Assembly: GCF_000022325.1 (NCBI RefSeq)
Contig: NC_012034.1
Span: forward strand, 2,834,001 to 2,898,000
Length of the DNA: 64,000 nt
From: Caldicellulosiruptor bescii DSM 6725
Lineage (GTDB): Bacteria > Bacillota > Thermoanaerobacteria > Caldicellulosiruptorales > Caldicellulosiruptoraceae
Direction: 5' to 3'
Below, piece by piece: positions 13,561 through 39,020 of the stretch (position 1 is its first letter; the number at the start of each line of letters is the position of its first letter). The notes under the pieces are model-generated. The model worked only from the letters and a program-made list of their open reading frames with translations, was not told where the DNA came from and did not search any database. The translations under genes and the position numbers were made by a program.

Positions 13561-14184
13561 CTACCTTACACAGAACATCTGACAAAACATGTCAAGAAGC
13601 TCTGTTGAGGCAAATACTTCGTATCTACCAAAATACTCAATTCTTGAAGGAACCACATACTGTTTTTTCAAGCCATCTTTTATGACAAAGAAAAACCTCT
13701 GGTCTTCTGGATATGTTCCAAACCTTTGGTAGTATATGCTCAGAAGCTGTCTTCTTAGCATTTCTGAAAAAATCTCTGGCTGCCTGTCATATTCTAAGCA
13801 AACACCATCTTTTTGAACAAACACACCGCTGAGCAAAATTCCACTTGTCTTTGGCTGCTGGGTCCTGCATGAAATTCTCTTCAAGTAAATGCCATCAAAT
13901 AAGTAATTTAAATTTTCATAAACCTTTAATACGTTCTGTGTAACAAGCTCTAAAAAAGGTGTTGCAAGGTATATTCTAAAGTCTTCGAACACCCATATGC
14001 CATCTTCAACCTCTTTTTTGTTTTTTGTTCTTATAGGTGAGATGGTAAATAGCTCAGTAGAAAAAAGACTTTTCAAAGCTTCATATACCTTAGAGTAATA
14101 AGAGGATGGCAAAAATATACCATCCTCCCTTGCCCAAAAATGAAATGTAAAGTATTTTGCCACTTTTTCATCACAGCCCATCAT
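13561..14184 (-). CDS. Cas6-like CRISPR RNA endonuclease, C-terminus apparently shortened
   Basis: A 207-residue protein, last gene of the csm operon. Its pattern follows Cas6: an N-terminal ferredoxin-like fold with FTISPIRTKN, then FRIYLATPFLELV, then a second fold ending IEYFGRYEVFASTELLDMF, where Cas6 proteins normally have GxFxVxGSPELLxxLxxxGLG. The glycine-rich GLGxxxxxGFG loop that should follow is missing; the protein stops at CQMFCVR. Its ATG overlaps the csm5 stop (ATGATGG), so the two are translationally coupled. Cas6 cuts the repeat transcript to make crRNA with an ATTGAAAC tag. A Cas6 elsewhere in the genome may do the work, or this protein may be a divergent active form. The call rests on pattern and position. 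Confidence 0.55.
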   Translation of the reverse strand: MMGCDEKVAKYFTFHFWAREDGIFLPSSYYSKVYEALKSLFSTELFTISPIRTKNKKEVEDGIWVFEDFRIYLATPFLELVTQNVLKVYENLNYLFDGIYLKRISCRTQQPKTSGILLSGVFVQKDGVCLEYDRQPEIFSEMLRRQLLSIYYQRFGTYPEDQRFFFVIKDGLKKQYVVPSRIEYFGRYEVFASTELLDMFCQMFCVR

Positions 14185-15353
14185 CTAATGGTTACTTTTA
14201 TCCAGCCGGGTACTGTCCAAACCTGTCCATCCTTAAACAAAAGACGTCGTGACTTTGGAAAAATATCAGGATAGATTTTTGACTGAGTATCTACCCTTGA
14301 AAGTTTTTCAAAATGGCTCTTATTGAAAAATATTCCCACAGTTTTTGAAAGATATCCTGTTGAAAATCCTATCTGGAGCAAAAATTTATTTTTGTCAAGA
14401 GAATTTAAAATATTCAAAAGTCTTTGATACTCAGAAACAATCTGCTTTTGATTGTATTTAGAGTAAAAGGTCATTTCTTTCTGGATATAATCCTTTGCAA
14501 CAGAATTTAAAATTTGGGCAACAAATTCATATGGTGAAGATGATAATCCGCTTGCCAAAAGCTTCTCCTTTAACCCTTTAACTGCAGCATTTCCTTCGAT
14601 TAAATCTTTTTCAACCTTGATACTTCCATAAAGCTTTACACCAGGTTTCAATCCTTCAGCAACAATGGCAGTTGCCTGCTTTGGATCATCAATATTGCCA
14701 TTTCTCGAAAACCATTTTGGCTGATTTGAACATATGTTCAAAACTTTTATTTCAAAAATCCCTGCGCTCTCTTGACCTACAAAGCTGCTGTCGCTTACCC
14801 TTAGGTATTTGAACGGCGATTCATAAGGAGTTCCAAAAATCTTCTCATCTGCATCACGGCTTACAAACTTGGGGTCAACTCTGTTTCGATTCAGAACTTT
14901 CTGATAAGCATTTGAGAGCGCACTCTCATAAAACTGCAAAAGGTTTTTCGAAAGAGCTTTTGTCATAGAAGACCTCATTGCCCCTTTTAAGGATGAACCC
15001 GGAATGTAAAACCTGCCTGCACTTTTTACAAATGCAACTACTTCTCTGTAAGGGCTTGTAACACCTTCAAGTCTAAGAGTGTACTTTACCGCCTTTTTAA
15101 AATCTATGCTATATTTTTTCAGAATATCTTTTATATTAAAATCCCTTGCACCTGACGAAAGCTCTCGAGAAAGCTCTTCAATGAAGCTATCTTTAAAAAG
15201 GTTTTGCTCAAAGAGCTTATCAAAGTTCAAAAAGTACAAGTACTCTCCTTCTCTTACAAACTCAAAACTCTGAATTTTATCCTGTCCGCCTATGATTGTG
15301 GGAGTCAGAACTTCAATCTCGTATGTTTTGCTTTCAAAACTATCTGCTGCCAA
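14181..15353 (-). CDS. csm5: Csm5, type III-A RAMP protein
   Basis: A 390-residue RAMP-superfamily subunit that caps the 3' end of the crRNA in the Csm complex. RAMP features are the N-terminal YEIEVLTPTIIGGQD strand and the glycine-rich segment FYIPGSSLKGAMRSSM near residue 118. Length agrees with Csm5. It probably starts with TTG at 15353, inside the end of csm4, with GGGGTG 7 nt upstream, so the genes overlap by 14 nt. It is followed by the cas6-like gene with a 4-nt overlap. Csm5 often helps recruit host nucleases for crRNA trimming. Confidence 0.9.
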   Translation of the reverse strand: MAADSFESKTYEIEVLTPTIIGGQDKIQSFEFVREGEYLYFLNFDKLFEQNLFKDSFIEELSRELSSGARDFNIKDILKKYSIDFKKAVKYTLRLEGVTSPYREVVAFVKSAGRFYIPGSSLKGAMRSSMTKALSKNLLQFYESALSNAYQKVLNRNRVDPKFVSRDADEKIFGTPYESPFKYLRVSDSSFVGQESAGIFEIKVLNICSNQPKWFSRNGNIDDPKQATAIVAEGLKPGVKLYGSIKVEKDLIEGNAAVKGLKEKLLASGLSSSPYEFVAQILNSVAKDYIQKEMTFYSKYNQKQIVSEYQRLLNILNSLDKNKFLLQIGFSTGYLSKTVGIFFNKSHFEKLSRVDTQSKIYPDIFPKSRRLLFKDGQVWTVPGWIKVTIR

Positions 15354-16344
15354 ACAGCATCACCCCTTCCGGCAGAGGAAGCAAAAAGGCAAGTCCAAAA
15401 CAGTATACCCTATGCTCTGTAAACTTATCAGGTGTGACATCTACCACTCTGCCATATATTTTACTGGAAAACACCGCACCCTCGCCAAACACACTGACAG
15501 TTTTTTTCTTTATCCCAAGCCCTGCTTTGGAGTAGACATATCCGCTTCGCGTCAAAATCTCATAAAACACAACGCTTTTTATCTCATCTTCATCTTTCGG
15601 ATTAACTAAGGACAAACTCATGTAATATCTTGATTTATCGTTTTTAAACTGCGGTACATCATCTTTAAAATCAACTTCAAAACTTCCAAGCCCGCAGGTT
15701 CTATCGCCACCAAGCCCTTCATCGCCCAAAAGCCTTATTGCTGCTTTGATTTTATTTTCCAGCTTTTCGATGTTAATCTTAAGATAGAACCACAAACCTG
15801 ATTCTTTTTCAAACTCAAAATGAGAAAAGTAATATATGTTAGAAGATGATGTTTGCCTGTCGATAGAAACTCTTGCCCTTTCTTTTATTCTGCCAAGAGA
15901 GACCCTTTCTTTATCCTTTTCAAATTCATTTTGAGGTATTAGAAAGCTTCCTGCCGGCTTGTATTTGAATGGAAAGCCTTCAAACAAATCCCTTTCTTTT
16001 ACAAACTTTATTTTCTTGAGCTCCTTCTGATGTTCGGCATTTATTACTCCTTTATTCTTATACTCCTCCATGTCCATGCCAAGAGGAATGGGCACAAAAT
16101 ACTGAAAGTTAACATACGGCATTGTAGAGGAAACTTCAAACGGTGGTGTGCCGTTTACGAATTCACTAATCAACTTTTCAGTTTCATCTTTGCCGTAAAG
16201 TAGCGAATATGCATTTATTATGCCAGACATAAGCGTATCGGAATGCGCAAACGTTCTGGTGATGTTGTATATTTTTTCTTTTTCGCCAATGTGCACAGGT
16301 GCTTTAAATCTCATCACAACTCTGCAAATTTTGTTTTTGACCAT
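15340..16344 (-). CDS. csm4: Csm4, type III-A RAMP protein (Cas5 group)
   Basis: A 334-residue RAMP protein expected to bind the 5' tag of the crRNA and contact Cas10. It shows the Cas5-group N-terminus (VVMRFKAPVHIGEKEK) and a glycine-rich loop, LLGDEGLGGDRTCGLGSFEV, near residue 210. The ATG at 16344 has AAAGGTG 6 nt upstream; an upstream GTG at 16353 has no suitable site. It lies 28 nt after csm3 and overlaps csm5. Order and sizes match a standard csm operon. Confidence 0.92.
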   Translation of the reverse strand: MVKNKICRVVMRFKAPVHIGEKEKIYNITRTFAHSDTLMSGIINAYSLLYGKDETEKLISEFVNGTPPFEVSSTMPYVNFQYFVPIPLGMDMEEYKNKGVINAEHQKELKKIKFVKERDLFEGFPFKYKPAGSFLIPQNEFEKDKERVSLGRIKERARVSIDRQTSSSNIYYFSHFEFEKESGLWFYLKINIEKLENKIKAAIRLLGDEGLGGDRTCGLGSFEVDFKDDVPQFKNDKSRYYMSLSLVNPKDEDEIKSVVFYEILTRSGYVYSKAGLGIKKKTVSVFGEGAVFSSKIYGRVVDVTPDKFTEHRVYCFGLAFLLPLPEGVMLFGSR

Positions 16345-16372
16345 TTCAATCACCTTTTAAAAAACAGATTTG

Positions 16373-17173
16373 TTAAGAAAGCTTTAGCTCATCAAGGCTT
16401 TTTGCCGTCGCTATTGGCTGAAGTTCACTTGAGTCTTTTTCATAATCGCTTGAATCTTTGTAGAATATCTCTATATCAACAAACCTCACTTTGCCATTTC
16501 CTCTTGAACCCTGCCCGCCAAGGTAATCATCTTCTAATAGCTTCATTGCTTTGATAAACTTTTCAAGGTAGTATTTCTGGTCATCTTTGCTGTCAACTTC
16601 AAATCTGTTTATGACAAACTCTGCTGAAAACTGTGCGCCTGCAGGAACTCTTTCACTCTGTCTTGGATTTGCCTTTGATGTTATTCTATCTATATTATTC
16701 TCAAATTTCACTTCTGTCCACTCAAGGTCAAGGTTCTCCTTCATCTCTTCTGTGATAGAAGTTTCTATCAGCTTTGCATCGCGAACAATGAGCCTTGTGG
16801 GAATAACTGCATCTGTAAGATCTATTTTCCCACCACTTTTTAAATCATGAGAACCATGGTTTCTGCCAAAAAGTCCGCATACAGGACAATTCAAATCATC
16901 GCACATGTGAAGGCATATCTCCGGTCTGCCTTCCCTTTTGACCGACACAACAAGCAAATTATCTCTTACCTTCCCTTCAGCAAACTCCATTAAAGCCCTC
17001 ATCTTGCCTTTGAGAGATGAACCGGGAATGTAAGGCCTGCCTTTTGCATCTTTTACAACTGCATTGTCAATTCCACCTATCTCAAGGCTGTTGTTGCCCT
17101 CACCAATGTGAAGACCTGTTTGAGCTTCTATCTTGCACTTTATGATGTATTTTCCTTTCAAGATTACATCCAT
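16373..17173 (-). CDS. csm3: Csm3, backbone RNase of the type III-A complex
   Basis: A 266-residue RAMP protein that forms the backbone of the Csm complex and cleaves target RNA at 6-nt intervals. The catalytic Asp is probably D36 in GGIDNAVVKD. The conserved PYIPGSSLKGKMR follows, and a zinc-ligand cluster (CLHMCDDLNCPVCGLFG) is present. The C-terminal glycine loop is YLGGQGSRGNGKVRF. All these match active Csm3. It lies 27 nt after csm2. Confidence 0.95.
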   Translation of the reverse strand: MDVILKGKYIIKCKIEAQTGLHIGEGNNSLEIGGIDNAVVKDAKGRPYIPGSSLKGKMRALMEFAEGKVRDNLLVVSVKREGRPEICLHMCDDLNCPVCGLFGRNHGSHDLKSGGKIDLTDAVIPTRLIVRDAKLIETSITEEMKENLDLEWTEVKFENNIDRITSKANPRQSERVPAGAQFSAEFVINRFEVDSKDDQKYYLEKFIKAMKLLEDDYLGGQGSRGNGKVRFVDIEIFYKDSSDYEKDSSELQPIATAKSLDELKLS

Positions 17174-17200
17174 GGCAATAGTCTCCCCCTTTTGTGATTA

Positions 17201-17614
17201 TTATTCTCTTCCACCAAAATACTTGTGATATGCAACAGCGCCTTCAAAAAAGTCTTTAAACCTGCTCAAAGCATCAGGGCTTTGCAAAGCCACAGGAATT
17301 GCTTTGTTAACTATCTCCTGGAAATCTTTTATTTTTGGAAACCTTCCTGCTGTGTATGCAAGCTTTGCTTTCAAAAGATTCAATTTGTATTTGTAATTTT
17401 CATCATCAGGAGAAAGTCTTTTTACCTCTGTGAACACTTTTCTAAGCTGAGTAACAGTAACACCACAATCTTTCAAAAGCTGACCTGTCTTTTCTGAAAC
17501 TTCAGCCAAAACAGTACCATCTTTGTCCTTTGAAGGGTCAATCGCAGTCTGGATCTTGCTCAAAATATCATTTTTCAAGCTAACAATCGGATTTACATTC
17601 TGTTGCGCTGGCAT
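17201..17614 (-). CDS. csm2: Csm2, small subunit of the type III-A complex
   Basis: A 137-residue, all-helical small subunit that lines the inner filament of the Csm complex. The sequence has the Csm2 character (AKLAYTAGRFPKIKDFQEIV, where AYAAGR is typical). The ATG at 17614 is preferred: GGAGAGGTG is upstream, and an earlier in-frame start at 17635 falls before that site. It lies 28 nt after cas10. Confidence 0.9.
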   Translation of the reverse strand: MPAQQNVNPIVSLKNDILSKIQTAIDPSKDKDGTVLAEVSEKTGQLLKDCGVTVTQLRKVFTEVKRLSPDDENYKYKLNLLKAKLAYTAGRFPKIKDFQEIVNKAIPVALQSPDALSRFKDFFEGAVAYHKYFGGRE

Positions 17615-17642
17615 AACAAATTCACCTCTCCGCAATTTATTT

Positions 17643-20156
17643 TTACCTTCTCAGCTCAAGCTCAGCCCAGCGTGCTGCCAAGTAAGAGTGTTTGTACAAA
17701 GAATTTGATTTTTTATCAATAATTTTTGGCAAAATATCTTCAAGCTCTTTTGAATACTTCTTATACCTCTCTTTCAGCCTTGCCATGAAATACACAAACC
17801 GCCACGACTTAAAAAGTTCTTCTTGAGTCTGAGTCATCTTTTTAAGATTGCAAACGGCATAGATGCCGTTTATAAGCGCTTTTGAAACGTTTTTGCTACC
17901 AATTAAATCTGCAATCACCTCTTTTAGCTTTTCCACATCCTCATAATCTTCCCAGCCAACAAAATTGCCGCCAAACGCAAAACAGTCTTTTTTTCGCCCA
18001 TCTTCTCTTTGGTATTCTTTGGCTTTGTCTAAATGATCTCCACACACAATAGCAACCCTGTAAATTGGATACTTTTTATCTGGTGCTATTTCAAAGCCCA
18101 TTGAAAGTGTAATGTCTGGATTGTGGCATGAAAAGCTTCTAAACTCTGTATAAATTTTGTGTGCTGTATGAGGTAGCACATCCCACTGACCAAGTATGCA
18201 AAAGTCATCCCCACCTGCATAAATAACAACAATATTGCCATTCTGCTGGCTTACAAGCTTGTTAAAATAATATCCAAAAAACAGCGAAAACTCTTCAGAA
18301 AGAGTCATGACCCTCGAAATAGAATTATCATCTCCAAGCCCTTCTTTGAAAATCCTGCCCAGATTGTCAACATCGCCACGAACAATACCCCATGTTTTGA
18401 TTCCTTTTGATGAGTTTGATATCTCATCTATTGTCTTAAGATTGATTTCATCTTTAAATGGTGCATGGGTTGAAATATCCAGCGCTTCATAAAAATCAAT
18501 CTCAAATTTATCGTCTGATTTTTTTCTGTTTTCAAGATTATTATTTTTTTCTAACAATTTCTCCAATCGATTTCTGTCAATAACAATTGTATTTGTCACT
18601 GGGTTTATAACCTTTTCAGAGTAGTTTGAAAATTCAATCTTTCTTCCAAAGGCTTCAAAAATATCTTCTATGTTTTTAAAATCTGAATACTCGATTTGTT
18701 CTCCCCATGATTCTTTGATAAAATCACTTTTCATAAGTTTTTCACCAAATTCGACAAAACTCTCGCAAAACGGACAAAAATCAGGGTCATCTTCTCTGGG
18801 TCTCAGCGCTCTGTGGCAGTGAGGACATTTTTGTTCATAGTCCTCGTATGGTTCAAAGAATTTCAACTTTTGATTTTCAATAACGTTTCTAAATTTCGAA
18901 ATCTTTTTCCTGTAGATTTTTGACGAAACTCTATCAAAACAATTCCCAAAATTGCCTGAAAAATCATAAAGATCAACTATATCTGTCTCAAGAAGTATAC
19001 TGATTGAGCCTCTGTGTGCTTTAAACAAAAGCTTGTCAATTTCTTTCTGATAATCTTCCACTTTTTCTGCAAAATATGCAGGCATCAGAAGATAAAAATG
19101 TCCACCACCGTTAAATATTAGGTTGCAAATAGGCATATTTTCTTTTTTCAGAATGAACCTTGCAACTGTATCAAGCAAAAATGAGATGTAAAACGACTTT
19201 GCCTTAAGAGCTTTCAGCGCCCCATCCATCTTTGTGTCAAAAACAAAATCTTGAATTCCAGAAATATCACCCTTAACAAGACAAAAGTACGGAAACTCTC
19301 CTTTTTTAATTGAAGAACCTCTACCGGATAAGATTTTTGTATTGATTGACTCTAAAACTCTAACTCTTTCATTTTCCTGTGAAAACTCTTTTTTAAGCTG
19401 CCTGTCAAGACAAAATGCAATAGCAGCAGTTGATTTGCTGTGCGCCCACAGTGATATGTCCGGTTTGGAATAATAAAAAGCTGATGGAATATTGTATGTG
19501 TAAATTCTGATTAAGTTGTAAATTGCTGATGCATATTCTTCTAAATCAAAATGTATTTCATTCAAGGATTTTTCAAACTTATCTTTTAGTATTAAGGCTT
19601 TTTTAGAAAAGTCTTCCCAGAGATTTTGATAGTCATTTCTTGCGTTTGAATAAAAACTGTCAGTGGGATACTTAATTTCATACCTTTTTGTTAAATTTTT
19701 GTAATAAGTTTTTCGACTACTTTTTTCATTTTGGTCAAGACATATCTGAGAAAGAATTGAAATAAGATACTTTGATTTGTCAGCAGATGTATCATCTTCT
19801 TCGATGTCTTTTCTGTCAACACTTGCTGAAATCTTGTCCGCAACGCTTATTAGATATTGACCGTATGATGACGGTTTGTGATGATAAAGAATAAGATTTG
19901 TTACATCTTTCAAAATTTCTTTTTTAAATCTTTCTGGCAATATTTGCTGCACATAATATGCCCCCCAATCCTCATGCCGAGGAGCATGCTTTCCAGCTTC
20001 TTTAAAAAATACATCGTATTCTCTCGATATTGTTATTTTAGCCTCAGAATTTTCGGTTCTCATATAAAACTTGCCAATGTCATGTAAAATAGCGCCAAGA
20101 AAAATGTTGTAATCCAAAATTTTATCTTCTGTTTGATAAGCATTGTAAAAAATCAT
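17643..20156 (-). CDS. cas10: Cas10/Csm1 with intact HD and GGDD motifs
   Basis: The 837-residue large subunit of the type III-A complex. The N-terminal HD nuclease domain has HDIGK at residues 25-29 and further His in KHAPRHEDWG, so target-activated ssDNA cleavage is likely. A zinc ribbon (CPHC ... CPFC) lies at about 442-466. The second palm domain carries YAGGDDF near 647, the active site that makes cyclic oligoadenylate. It is the first gene of the csm operon, with AGGTGGG before the ATG. Second-messenger output fits the Csx1 and Csx20 genes at 28489-30369. An IS200/IS605 element lies directly upstream and may separate the gene from its original promoter. Confidence 0.96.
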   Translation of the reverse strand: MIFYNAYQTEDKILDYNIFLGAILHDIGKFYMRTENSEAKITISREYDVFFKEAGKHAPRHEDWGAYYVQQILPERFKKEILKDVTNLILYHHKPSSYGQYLISVADKISASVDRKDIEEDDTSADKSKYLISILSQICLDQNEKSSRKTYYKNLTKRYEIKYPTDSFYSNARNDYQNLWEDFSKKALILKDKFEKSLNEIHFDLEEYASAIYNLIRIYTYNIPSAFYYSKPDISLWAHSKSTAAIAFCLDRQLKKEFSQENERVRVLESINTKILSGRGSSIKKGEFPYFCLVKGDISGIQDFVFDTKMDGALKALKAKSFYISFLLDTVARFILKKENMPICNLIFNGGGHFYLLMPAYFAEKVEDYQKEIDKLLFKAHRGSISILLETDIVDLYDFSGNFGNCFDRVSSKIYRKKISKFRNVIENQKLKFFEPYEDYEQKCPHCHRALRPREDDPDFCPFCESFVEFGEKLMKSDFIKESWGEQIEYSDFKNIEDIFEAFGRKIEFSNYSEKVINPVTNTIVIDRNRLEKLLEKNNNLENRKKSDDKFEIDFYEALDISTHAPFKDEINLKTIDEISNSSKGIKTWGIVRGDVDNLGRIFKEGLGDDNSISRVMTLSEEFSLFFGYYFNKLVSQQNGNIVVIYAGGDDFCILGQWDVLPHTAHKIYTEFRSFSCHNPDITLSMGFEIAPDKKYPIYRVAIVCGDHLDKAKEYQREDGRKKDCFAFGGNFVGWEDYEDVEKLKEVIADLIGSKNVSKALINGIYAVCNLKKMTQTQEELFKSWRFVYFMARLKERYKKYSKELEDILPKIIDKKSNSLYKHSYLAARWAELELRR

Positions 20157-22364: not shown

Positions 22365-22627
22365 CTCAAAGTTTATTTTATAACTTTTTTTGGCAGTTGA
22401 AAAGTTCAAAAAATATGCGAACTTTTAATAATGATAGCAATTATTTAGTCAGTGTGCAACCTGTATAGTCATTATATTATCGTTCAAAATAAAAAGATAT
22501 GTGTCAAAAATTTAATAAAACAAAATAATACTTTTACATTCATTTTGTCCTTAGATTTACTTTTATGTTTGTTTATATTCTTCTATATGGCTCCATGTGT
22601 TTAGAAAAATAAGACTTAAATTAGCTT

Positions 22628-22807
22628 TTGTATTTACCAATTCCTGTCGACCTGCAATCCCCCCAAAAACCCCCGGGGGTCGACAGCAAAAGACAAATTT
22701 TGGCATGTATTGACTTGTGGGCTTTTGAGGTGTATAATAGAAACAACATACTGCAGCTTGAAAACTTAACCATTTGTTCCTTGTTGCATTCTGCAAGCTA
22801 TCCACGG
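22628..22807 (+). promoter_or_regulatory. Leader of CRISPR array 2
   Basis: About 155 nt here is nearly identical to the sequence before array 3 (32078-32233), so it is the conserved array leader. It carries a strong inverted repeat, CTGTCGACC at about 22645 and GGTCGACAG at about 22678, enclosing a C-rich then G-rich segment, and a sigma-A-type promoter. The 25-30 nt next to the first repeat differ between the two leaders. Confidence 0.88.
22710..22738 (+). promoter_or_regulatory. Sigma-A-type promoter of CRISPR array 2
   Basis: TTGACT at 22710-22715 and TATAAT at 22733-22738 are separated by exactly 17 nt, a near-perfect housekeeping promoter. Transcription would begin about 65 nt before the first repeat and run through the array on the plus strand. 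Confidence 0.85.
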
Positions 22808-23631
22808 GTTTGTAGCCTCCCCTTTGGGGATTGAAACCGATGAAGGATTGTAGGATTTTTGCAATATATAAACGTTTGTAGCCTCCCCTTTGGGGATTGA
22901 AACTATAATAGTTGCTCGCATAGGAAACTCTATACATTGTTTGTAGCCTCCCCTTTGGGGATTGAAACAAAGTTTATCTATTTCTTCTTGCGTTTTATTT
23001 GTTTGTTTGTAGCCTCCCCTTTGGGGATTGAAACAAATATTTAGCGCTTTGTCTTTAAATTGAGAATATAAGTTTGTAGCCTCCCCTTTGGGGATTGAAA
23101 CGTCCCTCACAACGATGAAACAATCAAAAGAATCTATTGTTTGTAGCCTCCCCTTTGGGGATTGAAACTAAACAAATTAATGTAGCTAAATTTGTCGCCT
23201 TGTAGTTTGTAGCCTCCCCTTTGGGGATTGAAACTCCAGTGGGATGGAAAGAGATGAAATAATGTCAAAAGTTTGTAGCCTCCCCTTTGGGGATTGAAAC
23301 AAAATAATCAAAGATTCTTTTACCCCACCTACACATCGTTTGTAGCCTCCCCTTTGGGGATTGAAATCAATATCGAGAATAATCTTTCTTCCTTCAGTAG
23401 TTTGTTTGTAGCCTCCCCTTTGGGGATTGAAACGATAATGAGGGATTGAAAGTTGGTGAGCTTGTGAAAGTTTGTAGCCTCCCCTTTGGGGATTGAAACT
23501 TCCTTGTATTCGCTACAGGCAAAGTGATTTTACCAGTTTGTAGCCTCCCCTTTGGGGATTGAAACTCATAATTTAATCTTCTGCGTGTTTGTCTGCGCAA
23601 AGTTTGTAGCCTCCCCTTTGGGGATTGAAAC
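22808..23631 (+). CRISPR. CRISPR array 2: 13 repeats, 12 spacers
   Basis: Thirteen 30-nt repeats start at 22808, 22874, 22939, 23005, 23072, 23139, 23205, 23271, 23338, 23404, 23470, 23536 and 23602. Each begins GTTTGTAGCC and ends GATTGAAAC (GAAAT in the ninth). Spacers are 35-37 nt and all differ. The AAGGGG/CCCCTT-type core lets the repeat form a small hairpin, and the ATTGAAAC end is the usual 5' tag of mature crRNA, so the leader is on the left. The array does not end at 23631: a degenerate terminal repeat follows at 24127 after 495 nt of phage-like coding sequence. Confidence 0.97.
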
Positions 23632-23720
23632 GTTATTATGAAGATTTTGACACTTTAGAGCAAGAACTTGATACAAATATACTTGACAATTTTGAACTTG
23701 ATGAGGCGGCACCATTTTGA
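23632..23720 (+). pseudogene. C-terminal fragment of a gene cut off by a CRISPR repeat
   Basis: Directly after the thirteenth repeat a frame reads YYEDFDTLEQELDTNILDNF and ELDEAAPF, then TGA at 23718-23720. It has an acidic, protein-like character, no start codon, and its stop overlaps the ATG of the next gene (TGATG), as in phage operons. The 5' part of the gene is absent; the repeat marks the junction. Confidence 0.55.
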
Positions 23721-23956
23721 TGGTATATGAAGTTACTTATAACAATTCAAGACTTGTGTTTGAAGGAAAAGAAATTAATTATTTCAAGATTTTAGAGGCT
23801 TTAGATAAGCTTAGAGATTTGCGTGACTATATTGAACTGTTTTACACTGAGTATTCTGGTCTTCCTCTTACCTCTCTTCCATATGATGTTTTACTTGATA
23901 TTTTTACAAACTATCTTGACTTTATAGGTGTACAAATAAAGGTTATAGGTAGGTAA
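23720..23956 (+). CDS. Small phage-like protein, 78 residues, inside the end of array 2
   Basis: The ATG at 23720 overlaps the preceding stop codon, and the stop lies 8 nt before the RecA-like fragment. The sequence is acidic and helical (YFKILEALDKLRDLRDYIEL) and contains LTSLPYDVLLDIFTNYLDF. The family is not recognised. Tight coupling with its neighbours suggests that all three came from a phage or plasmid operon as one piece. Confidence 0.55.
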   Translation: MVYEVTYNNSRLVFEGKEINYFKILEALDKLRDLRDYIELFYTEYSGLPLTSLPYDVLLDIFTNYLDFIGVQIKVIGR

Positions 23957-23964
23957 ACTTTTTT

Positions 23965-24126
23965 ATGGGTGACAAGGCAAAAATAATTGAGCTCATGAAA
24001 GCTATTAATAAAGCTAAAGGTGGAAATGTGATAGGTTTTTTGGTAAGATAGCACCAAAATCTATTCCGGTAATTCCAACTCAATCACTTATTCTGAACAA
24101 ACAGCTAGGTATTGGTGGATTTCCAG
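23965..24126 (+). pseudogene. N-terminal fragment of a RecA-like recombinase
   Basis: From the ATG at 23965 the translation reads MGDKAKIIELMKAINKAKGG and NVIGF; after a one-base frame change it continues GKIAPKSIPVIPTQSLILN and KQLGIGGFPG. This matches the RecA N-terminus, where members read VIPTGSLSLDxALGxGGxPRGRI just before the Walker A loop. The frame ends in the degenerate CRISPR repeat at 24127, so the ATPase core is missing. It is probably from a phage-type RecA. Confidence 0.6.
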
Positions 24127-24156
24127 GTTTGTAGCCTCCCCGTTGGGGATTGAGAG
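24127..24156 (+). repeat. Degenerate terminal repeat of CRISPR array 2
   Basis: It starts GTTTGTAGCC like the other repeats but has CCCCGTTGGGG in the core and ends GATTGAGAGG. The same type of 3' decay is seen in the terminal repeats of array 1 (GAGGG) and array 4 (GAGAAG), which identifies it as the original array end. Confidence 0.85.
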
Positions 24157-25359: not shown

Positions 25360-25730
25360 CTCTTAAAGTAAAACATTTTTCATCTAAGCTTTAATAACTC
25401 TATTTTTCTTACACCCTCATCACACTTTATTCCTCTTATACAGTTTACAACCAGCCACATTTTTGATCAACTCCAAAATTTATGCGAAGTTTAATGATCA
25501 AATTTATCAGGTGAGATTAAAAATTTATTTCACCATAAATTTTTGCCATAAACAACATAATCTCAAATACTTTATTCTCAGAAAATAACTGCACAACTGA
25601 GAAAATCACAGTTTTAACTCTAATCAAAAACCAACTTCGCATAAAAATTTGTCTTTTCAAAGAGAATAAAACTCAGTTAAAATAACTTTGCTGCTGCTTG
25701 CAGCAAAAAATTTAAAGGGAGATGATAAGC
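25360..25730. other. Intergenic region with a hairpin before the gene at 25731
   Basis: About 370 nt of AT-rich sequence between divergent genes. A perfect 8-bp hairpin (TTTGCTGC at 25687-25694 and GCAGCAAA at 25700-25707, loop 5 nt) ends just before the ribosome binding site of the plus-strand gene. No further gene is visible. Confidence 0.5.
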
Positions 25731-26276
25731 ATGCAGCAAAAATCACTTCTTGAAAAGCTCTCATCAATAAGATTTCGCCAATACGTTTTGCAAGAAGAAG
25801 GTTTAAACTCCTGGTGGGATTTTAGAATGCCAATTGAAGATGATTACACTACACTATTTGAGCTGATCAAATCAATAAAAAGCGCAAGGCTTGTGTTCAA
25901 AGCTTTGATGGCATGCAAAAGATACTTTAGAATAATTCCTTCAAAAAAAGGTCTGTGCCTTGTCTACAGATTCTCAATTCTCTCAACAGCAAAAAATCCA
26001 GAACTTCCAGTTGACATAAATCAACCAACAGAAATAATTGAATACAACGGCATAAAATGGTTTGTTGAAGAATTTGGTTCTCTTATTGTCATCGGTGAGG
26101 TTAACATAAACAAGGTTAAAAGAATTGTCGAAAAACTTGAAGAAAACTGGAAGAAAAGATATCCAAAGATAAGAGAGAAGGAAATTAAAAAGTATATCGA
26201 CATCATAAAGAATGAAAACATAGAAGAAATGAGAAGAATATGGGATGCTTTTGTAGATGTTGTAAATGGAGACTAA
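25731..26276 (+). CDS. Hypothetical protein, 181 residues
   Basis: A soluble protein with a helical N-terminus (SLLEKLSSIRFRQYVLQEEG), a central beta-rich part (YFRIIPSKKGLCLVYRFSIL, IIEYNGIKWFVEEFGSLIVI) and a charged helical C-terminus. No known motif is recognised. The ATG at 25731 is chosen because GGGAG lies 9 nt upstream; an ATG at 25722 would be too close to that site. It stands alone, transcribed away from the zinc-ribbon gene and followed by a hairpin. Confidence 0.65.
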   Translation: MQQKSLLEKLSSIRFRQYVLQEEGLNSWWDFRMPIEDDYTTLFELIKSIKSARLVFKALMACKRYFRIIPSKKGLCLVYRFSILSTAKNPELPVDINQPTEIIEYNGIKWFVEEFGSLIVIGEVNINKVKRIVEKLEENWKKRYPKIREKEIKKYIDIIKNENIEEMRRIWDAFVDVVNGD

Positions 26277-28488: not shown

Positions 28489-29925
28489 TTACACTCTTTC
28501 TTTTAACCAGCAATCTATCGTGCTCTGTGGAAGTACTTGAATGTATCTGACATAAACTTTTTCACCGTTATATCTTACTTCTGTAATATTGCCTTCAAGC
28601 CCAGAATGTGCAAAAAAGTTTCTCTTATCAGGCTCATCATAAATAGGTTTCCCCGGGTCGACAATTTTTCTCAGCCTTGTCCATTGCTCTATTTCACCAT
28701 GTTCTTGTATTTTTTCAGTGTCGTTCGAAATCTCATTTCCAAGCATTGTCCAGTTCATTGGAATACCAAATATTGTGTAAATCTGTGCAAAAGTCTGTCC
28801 AAGTTTTTCTAAATCAAACCCTGTCTGCTGGCAAAACATTGTTATATTGTATTCTTCTAAAACCTCAACAATTCCCATGTAAAAACAAAGGCTTAAAATT
28901 GCATCCAGATATGCTTTTTTATTGAGTCTTGGTGAGCTTTTGAAATCTTTTGAAAGTTGGTCTTTTGCATGATTTATTAGATTTTTAAGTTCATTTTTAA
29001 TTTCATCTATTGAATGGTACGGATGGTAGTATAAATACAGCGGGACGTTGTTTTTGATTGCTGAAAATAAAATAGTAAACATCTCTATTTTTTCTTTTAA
29101 AGCTTTTCTCTTCTCGCGTATCTGCTTTTTTTGCAAAACTTTGTTGTTACCATTCTTATCATCCTGCGGTTCTTGGTAAATGTTTCGCAAAAACGAAAAG
29201 TTGTGGTCGCACGCTTCTTTTTTGCTTATCGGTGATGAGAAAAAGGCTGTATAACTTTGCGGCTGAATATGCAGCTCATAGTTTTCTGCAGTCCTTCCCG
29301 TGATTGGGTCTGAAAATGTAAGATAAATTCTGGGTTGTCTTTCTTCATGAATCCAGTGCATAAGCTTTGTTAAAACTGCAAAATGCCTTGATGCCTCAAT
29401 CATTGCCGATATGTATATGTTGTGCCCGCTTGAGATATCAAGATAAATCTCATCTATATTTTCTTCCTTTTTATCATCAATATACCTTTCTATCATGTCA
29501 AACAGTATTTCAAGGACTATATCGTCATAGCTGCCATCAAGTTCCACGTTGTTTAGATATGTCCCCAGAGAATGAATTACAAGCGTATCATCTCTCAAAC
29601 TTTCTAAAGGTAGTTTGTTTATTATATCAAAAGGAGATTTGAGATATTCCAAGGGGTTTTCGCAAATGCTTTTAAGCTTTTCTTTTAAATCATCATCTTC
29701 GATGTATTCTTTAATCTTCTCATTCAAAAGAATGCTGACAGGATAAATCACCACTGTTTTTACCTTATGCCCTTGCTGTTCCAAAAAATCTTTCAAAACA
29801 AAGCTGGAAAGCTCTGATTCTTTTGGAATCATTTCATCTCCGTTTTGGGATTTATTTGTAATAAAAAACTTTCTCTTTGCTGTCTTTGGATTGTCTAATC
29901 GCCCTATCTGATAGATAATCTTCAT
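28489..29925 (-). CDS. csx1: Csx1-family CARF-HEPN ribonuclease
   Basis: A 478-residue ancillary type III CRISPR effector. The N-terminal CARF domain binds cyclic oligoadenylate; the visible signature is EIYLDISSGHNIYISAMIEA near residue 160. The C-terminal HEPN domain carries the catalytic R-x4-H motif as RNFFAH (R435, H440), followed by SGLEGN, typical of Csx1. When Cas10 detects target RNA, this enzyme would cut RNA unspecifically. GGGGG precedes the ATG at 29925. It lies 45 nt after csx20, and the pair follows a small zinc-ribbon gene. All residues expected for activity are present. Confidence 0.9.
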   Translation of the reverse strand: MKIIYQIGRLDNPKTAKRKFFITNKSQNGDEMIPKESELSSFVLKDFLEQQGHKVKTVVIYPVSILLNEKIKEYIEDDDLKEKLKSICENPLEYLKSPFDIINKLPLESLRDDTLVIHSLGTYLNNVELDGSYDDIVLEILFDMIERYIDDKKEENIDEIYLDISSGHNIYISAMIEASRHFAVLTKLMHWIHEERQPRIYLTFSDPITGRTAENYELHIQPQSYTAFFSSPISKKEACDHNFSFLRNIYQEPQDDKNGNNKVLQKKQIREKRKALKEKIEMFTILFSAIKNNVPLYLYYHPYHSIDEIKNELKNLINHAKDQLSKDFKSSPRLNKKAYLDAILSLCFYMGIVEVLEEYNITMFCQQTGFDLEKLGQTFAQIYTIFGIPMNWTMLGNEISNDTEKIQEHGEIEQWTRLRKIVDPGKPIYDEPDKRNFFAHSGLEGNITEVRYNGEKVYVRYIQVLPQSTIDCWLKERV

Positions 29926-32257: not shown

Positions 32258-34585
32258 ATTTGTAGCCTCCCCTTTGGGGATTGAAACACATAAAAAACGT
32301 GCGATTTCCTTTTTGCCTGTTTCATTTGTAGCCTCCCCTTTGGGGATTGAAACTATTTCTTAATATACATTTTACTGCAAAATAACTTATTTGTAGCCTC
32401 CCCTTTGGGGATTGAAACCTAATTTAAACCTCCCCACTTTATGGCGTATGTCGTATTTGTAGCCTCCCCTTTGGGGATTGAAACGTACTAAACCAAGAGA
32501 AACCTTTATTTTATAATCAAATTTGTAGCCTCCCCTTTGGGGATTGAAACTCTTAATGAGCAAATCATAGCTAACCTTATGATTTAATTTGTAGCCTCCC
32601 CTTTGGGGATTGAAACATTCTTCTTTCTTTTGTTTTTCATAGTTTTCCTGAATTTGTAGCCTCCCCTTTGGGGATTGAAACATTCTTCTTTCTTTTGTTT
32701 TTCATAGTTTTCCTGAATTTGTAGCCTCCCCTTTGGGGATTGAAACATTCTTCTTTCTTTTGTTTTTCATAGTTTTCCTGAATTTGTAGCCTCCCCTTTG
32801 GGGATTGAAACACAAAATTTACAGCTATGCTCAAGAAATGATGAGCATTTGTAGCCTCCCCTTTGGGGATTGAAACCCATTAACATGGAGATATGCTTCC
32901 TTCTGTGCAAGATTTGTAGCCTCCCCTTTGGGGATTGAAACTAGATAAACAGTTTTATTCACAAATGGGGTATGATTTGTAGCCTCCCCTTTGGGGATTG
33001 AAACTGGTTTGACACGTGTAAGGTTTTCATGGGTGCCGATTTGTAGCCTCCCCTTTGGGGATTGAAACAAGTATTTTTTTCTTATTACAAACGGAATAAG
33101 CGTTATTTGTAGCCTCCCCTTTGGGGATTGAAACAATCAGCTCCTTCTTGAGCATCATACATCACCAAAAATTTGTAGCCTCCCCTTTGGGGATTGAAAC
33201 CTCTTCCTGAAAGCCCAGTTAGCTTGCTCAAGATTTGATTTGTAGCCTCCCCTTTGGGGATTGAAACCTCTAAATTGTCCACGCAAAACATCTATTTCCT
33301 CGCATTTGTAGCCTCCCCTTTGGGGATTGAAACAAATTTATATAAAAATATTTTCTGCACATTTTTATTTGTAGCCTCCCCTTTGGGGATTGAAACTCGA
33401 CCACTACCCAGCGAGAGTTTTTTGGAACAGCCAATTTGTAGCCTCCCCTTTGGGGATTGAAACTAAAGCTCTACATAGGCAGTGATAACAAGCAATATTT
33501 ATTTGTAGCCTCCCCTTTGGGGATTGAAACACAGTATCGGGGCTGCGGCGCAAGGCTGCAGCGTTCATTTGTAGCCTCCCCTTTGGGGATTGAAACTTTT
33601 GTATGTCATGCTGTCTTCCCTTCTTCCTTAGAATTTGTAGCCTCCCCTTTGGGGATTGAAACCCGCATGATTGGCAGTGGATAGCAGAGCTTGACGAATT
33701 TGTAGCCTCCCCTTTGGGGATTGAAACACAGCTTTTGCCAAATCACGATAAGTAAGTTGTCTTGATTTGTAGCCTCCCCTTTGGGGATTGAAACAAACTC
33801 TCAGCCTCTTTACACAAGTTATATAGCCTTATTTGTAGCCTCCCCTTTGGGGATTGAAACTCATATAAATACCCCCCTATCTTATTTCTTATCTTGATTT
33901 GTAGCCTCCCCTTTGGGGATTGAAACAAGTATTTTTTTCTTATTACAAACGGAATAAGCGTTATTTGTAGCCTCCCCTTTGGGGATTGAAACAAGAGAGT
34001 TTAAGACTTGCAAATTCGAGGAGTGGTAATTTGTAGCCTCCCCTTTGGGGATTGAAACAAGAGAGTTTAAGACTTGCAAATTCGAGGAGTGGTAATTTGT
34101 AGCCTCCCCTTTGGGGATTGAAACTGGAGGGAAGAGTGATGGTTTATCAAATCAAAATTGAATTTGTAGCCTCCCCTTTGGGGATTGAAACATTAACGCA
34201 TCGTCGCTATTCAGTTTGTCCTCTCTTATTTGTAGCCTCCCCTTTGGGGATTGAAACTCAGCTTCTTTTTCAACTTTTATGTTGCTTTTACTTAATTTGT
34301 AGCCTCCCCTTTGGGGATTGAAACAGACTTTTTAAAACTGTTAATTATTTTTTACCTATTATTTGTAGCCTCCCCTTTGGGGATTGAAACATGTGATAGC
34401 AAGGAATATACGATTTAAAAGAGGTGATTTGTAGCCTCCCCTTTGGGGATTGAAACTTGTGTTCTGGGTCATATAATCCATATTTTGCAGCATTTGTAGC
34501 CTCCCCTTTGGGGATTGAAACTTGCTTTCGTTTTCTCGCTCACAGTATTCAATTGGTTTGTAGCCTCCCCTTTGGGGATTGAAAC
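32258..34585 (+). CRISPR. CRISPR array 3: 36 repeats, 35 spacers
   Basis: Thirty-six 30-nt repeats, the first at 32258-32287 and the last at 34556-34585. Repeats 1-35 begin ATTTGTAGCC; the last begins GTTTGTAGCC. All end GATTGAAAC. Spacers are 33-37 nt. Three spacers occur more than once: one three times in a row (after the repeats at 32587, 32652 and 32717), one twice 858 nt apart (33069 and 33927), and one twice in a row (33993 and 34059). The last repeat is intact rather than degenerate, so the array is not terminated here; array 4 at 38662 looks like its other part. Confidence 0.98.
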
Positions 34586-34846
34586 CCTCGATGTTTTTTC
34601 GTTTTATTTTGATCTAATTCTGTGCAAAATTCGGGTATAATTCGATTGGCTGTTGGTTTTGAGGTTTGGGTTTTGTAAGAAGTTTCCATTTGTAGATGTT
34701 TGACTTAAGTAGGAAGTTGTTTAGAGATTGGTTTAAAAATTGAGATACTTTAGAGTGTTTACTTAATTTTACCGGTATTTTGGAAATATAGTGGAAAGGT
34801 ATGTTTGAAAATTTATAAGAAATTAGTGACAATGGGGTGGAAAATT

Positions 34847-35146
34847 ATGATAAAACTTAATGAGTATGGGAATATTATTTGTTCAAGGGAAAATGGAGAA
34901 GTAGTAAGAGAAAAAATATTAAAGGAAATAAAAAATGGTAATATAGTTGTAATTAATTTTGAAGGTGTTGAAATGATTAATCATTCTTTTGCAGATGAAG
35001 CATTTGGGAAATTACTTTATGATTTATCAGAAGATGTCCTTAGAAATCAAATAAAATTTGTTAATGCTAATGATGACATAAAAGGGATGATAAAAATGGC
35101 TCTTATGGAAAGACATAAACTTATTTTACTGGAAATGCAGAATTAA
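34847..35146 (+). CDS. STAS-like protein (DUF4325)
   Basis: A 99-residue protein with the DUF4325 pattern: ENGEVVREKILKEIKNGNIV, then VINFEGVEMINHSFADEAFG, where family members have a conserved SFAxExFG motif. The fold resembles anti-anti-sigma STAS domains. Members usually sit at the end of, or beside, a GHKL-type ATPase; no such partner is visible here. GGGGTGG lies 6 nt before the ATG at 34847. It is the first gene in the insert between arrays 3 and 4. Confidence 0.8.
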   Translation: MIKLNEYGNIICSRENGEVVREKILKEIKNGNIVVINFEGVEMINHSFADEAFGKLLYDLSEDVLRNQIKFVNANDDIKGMIKMALMERHKLILLEMQN

Positions 35147-35335
35147 AGTTTGTAATATATAAGATTTATTTTTGTATACTGCATGAGGGATTTGTTTTGG
35201 TAGTATATACCAAAGAATGGAAGTTTGTATTTATAAAAAATTAAAAATGTATATATCAGATTAACTTGCAGTTGAAATTAATATAACTATGAAAATTTAA
35301 TTAAAATCTATTTTTATAGAAGGAGGCGTATTAAC

Positions 35336-37690
35336 ATGATAAAGGTTAAATTTAGTAGAAAAATGATTATAGCATTGATAATTGTAGTGGCATTTATTTT
35401 AGTAACAATATTTGGTGCTGTGTTTTATGATAGAATTCCAAAAAGGGATATTAAGCAAAATATAAATATGGGTACTACAGATAACAATTTAAAATCTGAG
35501 AAATCCACTATTACAACAGATAAATTGTTCAACTGGATGAACATATTTAAAGCATATGCAGATAATACAAACAGTGACAGCGATGGCAATATAGATAATG
35601 AGATAGTTAATGACGCACCATATTTAGTTCCAGTATGGCAGCCAGGGGAGATTAACCCAGTAATATACCAGAAGAATGGAAAATTGTATAGGTTAAATGA
35701 TGTTTCTCCAGAAACTTTAGCTAAGTATTGCAGGATATTGTATGAGTTAGAGGTAAAAGATGTAAAAGAAAAGTATGTTGTTGAGGGTAATGACAGAGTA
35801 GGATGGGGATTGCTTTATAAAAGAATAGGACAGCCATTTTATAAAGCAAGTTGGGATTCAGGCGAAGATTATTATCCTCAAGTGTCTTTTATGGAGAGAA
35901 TGGTAGCATCGTGGTATAATTATTATTATAATTGGTTTTCAGCAATTACACCTATTAAGCTTAATCGTAACACGTTAAATACAACTTATATGTATGACAA
36001 TCAATATATAAGCAAAAATAGAAGAGAATTTTATATGAATTGCGATTTGGTTTTGGAGTTAGAGCCAGATTTAAATGGAGCAAAAGATAGATTCCCTGAT
36101 TATTTACAGCTATCGGAAATAGGATCACATAGTGGAAGCAATGTTAAGGCTGAATTAATAAATTGGGAGTATTTTGACATGATAAGAGCATACACTTATC
36201 TTTCTGTAAGATTTCTTAAGGATTTTGATACAAAAGTTTATAATAAATTGGCTTCTATAATTAAAAAATATAAAATGTCGCTGGGTAAAGATGCATTTGT
36301 GTCTGTAAAAATGTCAAGTAAGCCTCTCAAGTATGGAAAATATTATTCTGGACAGCGATTCACAATAAGTTTAAAGTTTATGTATATTAAACCTACGCTT
36401 GATATAAAACCAGTTAAAACAAAAGTACCAAAAATAGGTAAAAATCAGTTAGCATATGTAATCCAGCTTGACCCATATACAATTTCATTTGAAAAAGTAT
36501 ACAATATAACAGAACTATATTCTGAGCAAGATTTGAGACCATTACTAACTGAGTTAGGTAAAATTTATAAAGCAATAGGAAGCGGCAAGATAAGCGCAAA
36601 AGGGTATTTTGAATTTTTAAAGAAAGCAAAGCTAACAAGTGGGAAGTCTAATGAATATTTTAAAAATGCATCCAAGTTAGGAGACACCTATTTAAATTTA
36701 GGCAAATCAAAGCAGCCATTATATGTAGTTACAACATCAACTTCGACATTCAGGGCAGCTTGTTTAAACTATAAGAGAAAGTATATTGTAGATATATTCT
36801 ACGATATTTTAAGCAAGATGGACTATTTAGATGATTTTAAGTCTGCATGGAATTTAGGAGCTAAATATGCTAGTGCAGTTTATAATACACCAGACCAAAA
36901 AACATTGGATCCAGTAAATTTATTTGATTTTGAAACATCACAGGATCTTTATCCAGTATTTGTAGCAGGAAAAGTGCCTATAGGGAAGGTAGGATTTACA
37001 GGATACAATCTTGAGGATCGAGTAGGTAAGCCTATAGGAAAAGATTGTTTCTATGCACCAGAATACTATACATTAATAGAAGCAATGAATAAAAAGATTG
37101 CTAACAAGTCAATATTAAGCAAATATTATAATATAGAATATTTTGCAATACCGATTTCTGTTGAAGCAAATTCCACAAAAGATTATAAGAATTTAGTACC
37201 AGCAGCAATGCCACATTTATACAATGTAATGGTTATTTCTAGCAGATATCCAGAGCTTGATAATAATGGTAAGCCGTTTAAGTATAGATCACAAAAAAAT
37301 GGTGTTATAGGTGAGACATTGCCAATAATTTTTAGATTTTTCCCAGAGTTTGTAAACAAAGACAAAACAACATACCCATATTTTGCAGTAGAGTCTATAA
37401 TATTCGAAGGAGTAAAATTTAATAATAAACCAACAATACCACTATCAGATGGTAAGATAGCAAAAGATTGGGCAGAGATACCATTGAGATGGTGGTGGTC
37501 TAATCTGGCAGTTAAGTCAGATATAGAGCAAGGTAAGGATTTAGAAACTATTGGTATACACTTTGGTCCATCTTATAATTATACAAAAAATGATATAGAA
37601 ATAGCAAAGAAGTATGCAATCACACAAGATGTAATTTTAAAGAAAGCCAAATATTTCGGTTCAATTTTAGGCAGTGCATTTGAGAAATAA
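35336..37690 (+). CDS. Large exported or membrane-anchored protein, 784 residues
   Basis: An AGGAGG site 9 nt before the ATG marks the start. A single N-terminal hydrophobic segment at about 9-29 (MIIALIIVVAFILVTIFGAV) follows basic residues, so the bulk (about 755 residues) is outside the cytoplasm, anchored or secreted. The rest is Tyr-, Lys- and Asn-rich, with proline-containing beta-like segments and only about three Cys. There is no recognised domain. It precedes a second exported protein (37788-38573), and the two probably work together. I do not recognise the family; surface, conjugation or phage-related roles are all possible. Confidence 0.75.
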   Translation: MIKVKFSRKMIIALIIVVAFILVTIFGAVFYDRIPKRDIKQNINMGTTDNNLKSEKSTITTDKLFNWMNIFKAYADNTNSDSDGNIDNEIVNDAPYLVPVWQPGEINPVIYQKNGKLYRLNDVSPETLAKYCRILYELEVKDVKEKYVVEGNDRVGWGLLYKRIGQPFYKASWDSGEDYYPQVSFMERMVASWYNYYYNWFSAITPIKLNRNTLNTTYMYDNQYISKNRREFYMNCDLVLELEPDLNGAKDRFPDYLQLSEIGSHSGSNVKAELINWEYFDMIRAYTYLSVRFLKDFDTKVYNKLASIIKKYKMSLGKDAFVSVKMSSKPLKYGKYYSGQRFTISLKFMYIKPTLDIKPVKTKVPKIGKNQLAYVIQLDPYTISFEKVYNITELYSEQDLRPLLTELGKIYKAIGSGKISAKGYFEFLKKAKLTSGKSNEYFKNASKLGDTYLNLGKSKQPLYVVTTSTSTFRAACLNYKRKYIVDIFYDILSKMDYLDDFKSAWNLGAKYASAVYNTPDQKTLDPVNLFDFETSQDLYPVFVAGKVPIGKVGFTGYNLEDRVGKPIGKDCFYAPEYYTLIEAMNKKIANKSILSKYYNIEYFAIPISVEANSTKDYKNLVPAAMPHLYNVMVISSRYPELDNNGKPFKYRSQKNGVIGETLPIIFRFFPEFVNKDKTTYPYFAVESIIFEGVKFNNKPTIPLSDGKIAKDWAEIPLRWWWSNLAVKSDIEQGKDLETIGIHFGPSYNYTKNDIEIAKKYAITQDVILKKAKYFGSILGSAFEK

Positions 37691-37694
37691 TATA

Positions 37695-37730
37695 ACACAC
37701 AGGGTTACTAATATTAGTAACCCTGTGTGT
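37695..37730. terminator. Perfect 15-bp stem-loop
   Basis: ACACACAGGGTTACT and AGTAACCCTGTGTGT flank a 6-nt AATATT loop, beginning 5 nt after the stop of the 784-residue protein. It has no T-tract, so it may be a transcript-end stabiliser or attenuator before the next gene of the insert. Confidence 0.65.
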
Positions 37731-37787
37731 CCATGTTTATATACTTAGCATAAGCAACTAATATTAAATTTGGAGGTGTATAGTTGG

Positions 37788-38573
37788 ATGAGTCAAATTT
37801 TAGGGATTAATTTTAGGGAAAAGATAAAAGTTATTGTGAGATTTGTTGTGTTAGTGATTATGATGATTACTATTTTTAGTTTATTTAAACCTTATGCAGT
37901 TAAAGCAGAGGAAAATAACAACAGAGTATCATTTATATACGAGCCATTGATCAATATAGAAGATAAGCTTTATAAGATAAAACATGGTTTGTATAGTTTA
38001 AATATAATGGGATTGGTTGATTTGTTAGAAAGAAAAGGTTATACAAGTGATTTGATACAACCAGTAATATCGAATGAGTCTAATAGTAATAATTTTATAT
38101 ATTTAATAGCAGAGAAATTTTTTACTAAAGGTATTCCTTTTTTAAATATTTTACAACCAAGTGGCAATTTTTTCATTCAATCTAAATTAAACGAAACAAA
38201 GGTATATAGTGGTTTAGATTTAACCAGAGAGCAAATAAACACAGGTTTAAAAGATGTTGCTGTTAAATTAAAAGATGCTACAGCGATAAAATTTCCATTT
38301 TTAGAATTGGCAAAAAACGATGTAAAACTTCCAGATGGAATAGTACCAGACGCAACAGTAAGTATAGAGAGAATTTTAAAAGAAATAATAGAAGGTAGAG
38401 GTAATATAGAGAATAATTTTGTATACAAATTAAACTTAAATTCTTATGTATTTGACTGGCCATGGTTTAAAGTAATAGACAGCGATGGCAGATTAGTAAA
38501 TGCAACAACAGCAAGAGATCATGAAAAGATGTTATATTATGCACAAGAAGCGTTTAATCCAAATTCTAGATAA
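37788..38573 (+). CDS. Exported hypothetical protein, 261 residues
   Basis: GGAGGTG lies 9 nt before the ATG at 37788. A signal-like segment follows (VIVRFVVLVIMMITIFSLF then KPYAVKAEEN), with an AxA-like cleavage site near residue 44. The mature part is helical and polar, with LNIMGLVDLLERKGYTSDLI and a C-terminal FDWPWFKVIDSDGRLVNATT motif. It has the same AT-rich codon style as the preceding gene and is followed after 3 nt by a truncated gene. The family is not recognised. Confidence 0.7.
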   Translation: MSQILGINFREKIKVIVRFVVLVIMMITIFSLFKPYAVKAEENNNRVSFIYEPLINIEDKLYKIKHGLYSLNIMGLVDLLERKGYTSDLIQPVISNESNSNNFIYLIAEKFFTKGIPFLNILQPSGNFFIQSKLNETKVYSGLDLTREQINTGLKDVAVKLKDATAIKFPFLELAKNDVKLPDGIVPDATVSIERILKEIIEGRGNIENNFVYKLNLNSYVFDWPWFKVIDSDGRLVNATTARDHEKMLYYAQEAFNPNSR

Positions 38574-38576
38574 AGA

Positions 38577-38669
38577 ATGTTCATGATTTATAGATTTGAT
38601 AAGAATGGAAATTTAAATTTACTTGATAGTTATGATAAGGTTGCTTCAAATGTTTTATTTAGTTTGTAG
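38577..38669 (+). pseudogene. N-terminal gene fragment ending in a CRISPR repeat
   Basis: An ATG at 38577, 3 nt after the previous stop, opens a frame of 30 codons (MFMIYRFDKNGNLNLLDSYD, then KVASNVLFSL). It runs into the first repeat of array 4 and stops at the TAG inside it (GTTTGTAG). The gene was evidently cut where the repeat begins. Confidence 0.55.
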
Positions 38670-39020
38670 CCTCCCCTTTGGGGATTGAAACATTTCTTTA
38701 CCGTCTTCAGAAGTGTAAACTACCTCAATTTGTAGCCTCCCCTTTGGGGATTGAAACATTTCTTTACCGTCTTCAGAAGTGTAAACTACCTCAATTTGTA
38801 GCCTCCCCTTTGGGGATTGAAACTTTGCAACCTCTCTTGTCAAAAATACCTGACCGAGATTTGTAGCCTCCCCTTTGGGGATTGAAACTCCCTCTGAACA
38901 AAAACATCAATATAAAAACCATCGATTTGTAGCCTCCCCTTTGGGGATTGAAACAGCAGTTGCTAAAAATAGCAAATAAGCGCAATGAAAATTTGTAGCC
39001 TCCCCTTTGGGGATTGAGAA
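38662..39020 (+). CRISPR. CRISPR array 4: 6 repeats, 5 spacers
   Basis: Repeats start at 38662, 38728, 38794, 38859, 38925 and 38991. The first begins GTTTG, the next five begin ATTTG, and the last ends GATTGAGAAG, a degenerate terminal repeat. The first two spacers are identical. There is no leader: the sequence to the left is protein-coding. Sharing the ATTTG repeat form with array 3 but not array 2 supports its being the distal end of array 3. Confidence 0.97.

Follow-up and report, generated by a model that had tools for sequence, protein, structure and literature searches.

How did 495 nt of phage-like coding DNA come to lie between two repeats of a CRISPR array? We addressed this question in a window of 64,000 nucleotides of Caldicellulosiruptor bescii DSM 6725 (NC_012034.1, positions 2,834,001 to 2,898,000 of the forward strand); "the window" refers to this whole stretch, and window coordinates are counted from its first letter.

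The last interval of array 2 has exact ends

Array 2 follows a leader that ends at 22807; it comprises 13 repeats and is closed by a degenerate terminal repeat (24127-24156; Table 1). Its 12 other intervals measure 35-37 nt and the last one measures 495 nt, with both outer junctions falling exactly at repeat ends. A survey of array regions in 12 genomes of the genus gave 1,053 spacer intervals of this repeat family with lengths of 32-44 nt, a range that does not include the block. Given these lengths and the recurrence of the same interval in a sister species (G006, see below), the 495-nt interval is not due to chance. Genus-wide, sequence similar to the leader of array 2 is present upstream of the type-A arrays.

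The surroundings of the arrays show several other features. A type III-A operon (Cas10/Csm1, Csm2-Csm5) is found at window 14181-20156 and a Csx1 CARF protein at 28489-29925, near the arrays; no Cas1 or Cas2 was noticed in the part of the window examined. Array 3 has one spacer three times in tandem (window 32617-32811) and another twice (33070/33928). At the trailer ends L020:1326-1500, L021:1370-1440, L061:458-562, and L065:15385-15449, degenerate repeats are only 2-10 nt apart and the sequence between them is purine-rich, for example GGAGGAGGGGG.

Table 1. Positions of the array 2 features, of the long inserts in the genus, and of the sites used in the PAM analysis (window coordinates unless a genome and contig are given)
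Feature	Position	Strand	Remarks
Type-A leader of array 2	22621..22807	+	224 nt (22621-22844) 92% identical to the array 3 leader
Array 2, 13 repeats and 12 ordinary spacers	22808..23631	+	Spacers 35-37 nt
Repeat 13, left boundary of the block	23602..23631	+	Perfect copy of GTTTGTAGCCTCCCCTTTGGGGATTGAAAC
Foreign block, 495 nt, between repeats	23632..24126	+	G006 copy with same ends; missing from G004 trailers
Putative spacer A, first ~36 nt of the block	23632..23667	+	Proposed from the model; PAM would be outside the block
C-terminal gene fragment ending in FELDEAAPF and a stop	23634..23720	+	SSB-like acidic tail (weak)
78-aa ORF	23720..23956	+	Start overlaps preceding stop (TGATG)
RecA/UvsX-like N-terminus	23965..24126	+	Frameshifted near 24038, truncated at the repeat
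TTA, a YTR PAM	24088..24090	+	Exactly 36 nt before the right-hand repeat
Putative spacer B, last 36 nt of the block	24091..24126	+	Proposed from PAM phasing
Degenerate terminal repeat	24127..24156	+	3 mismatches; its CCCGTTGGGG variant recurs in the G006 and G004 trailers
Insert of 4076 nt	34586..38661	+	Perfect repeats on both sides (arrays 3 and 4); TTG precedes right end by exactly 36 nt
TTG, then the base equivalent to the first base of L029:9126-12651	35272..35275	+	Natural context of a left end, PAM visible
Neighbouring spacers of array 4, the first duplicated	38692..38858	+	Protospacers on one strand, in array order
Insert of 7408 nt	G006 L062:486-7893		
Insert of 651 nt	G006 L062:7991-8641		
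Insert of 400 nt	G002 L058:6745-7144		
Insert of 3526 nt	G000 L029:9126-12651		
Insert of 264 nt	G005 L114 2763-3026	reverse	
Insert of 6690 nt	G005 L114 3057-9746	reverse	

Gene content of the block and search for its parent

The block is contiguous coding DNA. An open C-terminus, which reads YYEDFDTLEQELDTNILDNFELDEAAPF before its stop codon, has an acidic tail ending in PF; by this motif it may resemble SSB proteins. It is followed by the TGATG-coupled 78-aa gene and by an N-terminus that matches the Pfam RecA profile (E=7.6e-4, profile positions 5-50) and a UvsX-like PHROG (E=0.003), the frame of which ends exactly at the terminal repeat. A 1-nt frameshift near 24038 interrupts this frame in the window and in G006 alike. 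The preliminary description, made from the letters of this locus, had reported a phage-like block bounded by an intact thirteenth repeat and a degenerate terminal one, and both the block (23632-24126) and its boundaries are confirmed. Its account of the genes (a C-terminal fragment, a coupled small gene, and a RecA-like N-terminus) also stands, except that the RecA-like frame is not intact. The operon-like order, the TGATG coupling, and the RecA/UvsX profile match are as expected of contiguous DNA from an invader, the parent genome of which was not found.

The 78-aa gene has no convincing database relative: outside G006, none was found for its product in IMG/VR, GTDB contigs, phages, or 37 genomes of the class. 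Comparison of the block DNA with phages and plasmids gave chance matches only and did not reveal the parent operon. The RecA-like N-terminus retrieved nothing from IMG/VR and only weak matches from phages (<60% identity, E 0.2 or worse). Degenerate patterns matched two IMG/VR contigs, neither with a RecA-like ORF at the match, and the prophage-like regions that bear protospacers do not include the operon of the block.

A function of the block itself is improbable. Because the trimming of type III guides takes place at the 3' end, the first ~36 nt, which follow an intact repeat, might in theory still give rise to a guide for the type III-A (Csm) system. The putative right-hand spacer has lost its upstream repeat.

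The block is older than the split of two species

Among the 61 genomes searched, only the sister species G006 carries the block (495 nt, 97.8% identity). It sits there at the orthologous trailer, with the same two ends, between one leader-adjacent repeat and the same degenerate terminal repeat; the host trailer beyond this repeat is 96% identical between the window and G006. Since the block is shared with the same ends, it must be older than the split of the two species, and its ends have stayed fixed. The presence of the block in two separate genomes also rules out an assembly error.

The same trailer is present twice in G004, where the block is absent and the last spacer is an ordinary one of 35 nt. 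This related species therefore lacks the block at the same place, which is compatible both with a block that was never there and with one since lost. In G002, only a short stretch of the trailer matches and the block is absent there. The 78-aa protein is identical in the two genomes that encode it, with 2 silent changes in 237 nt compared to about 4% divergence of the trailer; as judged from this one comparison, the low divergence could reflect constraint or chance.

Long inserts recur in the arrays of the genus

Most gaps longer than ordinary spacers extend from the end of one array to a new leader. Leaderless exceptions are few and represent about seven independent inserts in the genus (264, 400/651, 495, 3526, 4076, 6690, and 7408 nt). 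The 4076-, 7408-, and 3526-nt inserts are related elements that break off at three different positions in one gene, in each case precisely at a repeat. In the 6690-nt insert, a gene for a phage tail sheath (PHROG E=3e-156) is accompanied by a transposase-like ORF and by another structural gene, which is truncated at the repeat. The G002 and G006 inserts of 400 and 651 nt occupy one orthologous trailer; they share their last 100 nt (96%) and are wholly different leftward of it, as if one fixed spacer B had anchored separate exchanges with different phages. The earlier proposal of a repeated process that places long foreign DNA between CRISPR repeats, which had been based on the block and the array 3/4 insert, is thus supported by these inserts.

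We also observed the related elements (window 34805-38573, L029:9181-12742, and L062:517-7901) next to or inside arrays in three species; they carry a 784-aa and a 267/375-aa ORF (no Pfam match), a 982-988-aa ORF, and a DUF4325 gene. At L017:6504 in G006 and at 4595 on the reverse strand of L060 in G005, a perfect repeat runs without a gap into the middle of a gene resembling the 184-aa ORF at window 25722-26276; these may be comparable junctions involving host DNA.

A PAM lies one spacer length inside the right end of most inserts in type-A-leader arrays

PAMs were determined by matching spacers of the genus to non-array sequence in related genomes. In type-A-leader arrays the PAM is 5'-YTR (13/15 protospacers), and in type-B-leader arrays it is mostly TCN. 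Pooling of all PAMs as YTR was dropped when more arrays revealed the type-B motif. The two leader types (type A at window 22808 and 32258; type B at L102 and L118) thus go with the same repeat and different PAMs, and 38-nt spacers are commoner in type-B arrays.

A single over-long prespacer predicts a PAM outside the left end only, while recombination at two spacers predicts an additional PAM one spacer length inside the right end. We checked this phasing first on the block, which has a TTA at that distance in the window and a TAA in the G006 copy, and then on the other inserts. Among those in type-A-leader arrays, TTG is found at 36 nt (4076), TTA at 36 nt (7408), and TTA at 37 nt (3526), with ATG at 36 nt (400/651) as the exception. 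A YTR at 36-37 nt thus occurs in 4/5 independent type-A inserts (likelihood ratio 48; Monte Carlo p=0.003 with the observed spacer-length distribution), a test that comprises five events with one clear exception and for which several insert and motif choices were made after seeing the data. With NTR, a motif also chosen after seeing the data, offset 36 is occupied in 6/7 right ends, and none of the remaining offsets between 15 and 60 in more than 3. The 264- and 6690-nt inserts, which belong to the type-B-leader array of G005, have no TCN at 34-39 nt and show TTG and ATG at 36 nt instead. As type-B-leader arrays use mostly TCN, these two inserts count against the two-spacer model.

The left-end PAM of the block is unreadable because the parent phage was not found. 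The only left end that can be read in its natural context is that of the 3526-nt insert: L029:9126 corresponds to window 35275 and is preceded there by TTG. For the 7408-nt insert, the G004 context does not align at the left boundary. In array 4, the neighbouring spacers that start at 38692 and 38824 both have their match in one element, on the same strand, in array order and 351 nt apart. By analogy, this collinear pair may represent the predicted precursor state of such an insert. Taken together, the phasing of PAM motifs points to recombination of two existing spacers with an invader in preference to acquisition of a long spacer.

Proposed origin of the block

We propose that the block is a scar left when the array and an infecting phage underwent homologous recombination at two spacers; we give this origin a probability of roughly two in three. 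The ancestral array would have held two ordinary spacers of ~36 nt, A and B, derived from one phage replication operon and collinear with it, with strand and order preserved. Crossing over within both A and B, or else repair of a gap in a broken array with the phage as template, would then have exchanged the repeat(s), and such spacers as separated the two, for the stretch of phage DNA by which A and B are naturally connected. The expected product, repeat-A-(phage DNA)-B-repeat, has exact outer junctions. The reaction may have used host RecA or the RecA-like/SSB pair of the phage; the captured operon encodes a RecA-like protein and perhaps an SSB, which makes the phage's own enzymes candidates. 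We infer the two-spacer precursor, the crossovers, and the acting recombinase, and recombination at two homologies of ~36 bp would be rare. The mechanism is well supported rather than proven, because the parent phage was not found and the PAM evidence consists of few events with exceptions. Insertion of a whole phage via one spacer was ruled out, as the block does not begin and end with the same 36 nt.

Other origins were weighed against the same observations. The block might be a giant spacer, a single abnormally long prespacer of 495 bp integrated by Cas1-Cas2(-Cas4) with duplication of the repeat. Such an event would give exact repeat boundaries, and in G006 both flanking repeats have the CCCGTTGGGG variant; this variant is, however, also found in the G004 trailer and is not diagnostic. 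We consider this origin unlikely, given that more than 1,000 spacers of the repeat family keep to 32-44 nt and that it does not predict the PAM seen one spacer length inside the right end of most inserts. Capture of 4-7 kb inserts by the integrase is also implausible. It is quite improbable that another rearrangement produced the block, such as a repeat-mediated deletion within a larger insert or a phage fragment caught at a break, in which case at least one of its ends would not be a spacer. Arrays commonly recombine between their repeats (PMC3025118) and the G005 inserts misfit the PAM model, but this origin gives no explanation for the PAM at -36, and the operon that the block contains is a contiguous one.

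Phages are also known to have solitary repeats and mini-arrays, and their integration has been proposed (PMC8616872). Recombination of such phage or plasmid repeats with those of the array could leave the DNA between them in the array; we regard this route as very unlikely, since several elements would have to possess repeats within recA and other genes beforehand, and a PAM at -36 is not among its predictions. An ordinary prophage remnant beside a decaying array, with a terminal repeat that is coincidental or part of the remnant, would account for the phage-like content. This reading, by far the most doubtful, is already contradicted: the block has the same exact ends in two species, host trailer follows the terminal repeat in G000, G006, and G004, and neither an integrase nor any further phage gene is present at the block. 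The preliminary description had pointed to an empty site in related strains and to additional phage genes beyond the repeat in relatives as informative. G004 has the orthologous trailer with no block in it, and additional phage genes beyond the repeat were looked for and not found, the ends in G006 being identical to those in the window.

Wider implications and comparison with known systems

Extension of two-spacer recombination to the genus is more tentative, and we hold it as a possibility somewhat short of even odds. Its arrays would act as recurrent traps for long foreign DNA: two nearby collinear spacers of one invader would recombine with it, the repeats between them would be replaced by up to kilobases, guides would be deleted and genes captured, and the reciprocal product would seed phages with mini-arrays. 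If this is right, spacers are not guides only; they are also short homologies that let invaders rewrite the array. It would offer a natural route for loss of immune memory, for phage gene capture, and for the leaderless mini-arrays of phages. It also yields a simple test for genome scans, in which over-long spacers would be examined for a PAM located one spacer length inward from their right end.

A full-text literature search, which covered few subscription journals, returned no earlier report of phage DNA kept between repeats and bounded by two spacers, and natural recombination scars kept inside arrays appear undescribed. Several known processes resemble parts of the proposed one. Acquisition by Cas1-Cas2 also leaves foreign DNA flanked by repeats, but gives spacers of 32-44 nt with no PAM inside the insert, unlike the 495-nt block. 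In Sulfolobus, recombination between CRISPR repeats keeps repeat-spacer junctions perfect, as seen here; its outcome there is spacer deletion, with separate IS insertions and without capture of invader DNA (PMC3025118). In staphylococci, recombination between a spacer and its phage target leads to transduction of the CRISPR locus (Varble et al., 2019, as cited in the review PMC8616872). This case shares with the event proposed here homologous recombination between a chromosomal spacer and the matching phage sequence. As described in the review, it differs in its product, the transduced locus, whereas here phage DNA appears to stay in the array, with a spacer at either end, to be passed on across species, and to recur in the genus. 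Finally, leaderless mini-CRISPR arrays of phages have been suggested to originate from recombination with host arrays (PMC6858448). In those, repeats and spacers end up in the phage, whereas here phage DNA ends up in the array, and the mini-arrays could be the reciprocal product of the event proposed here.
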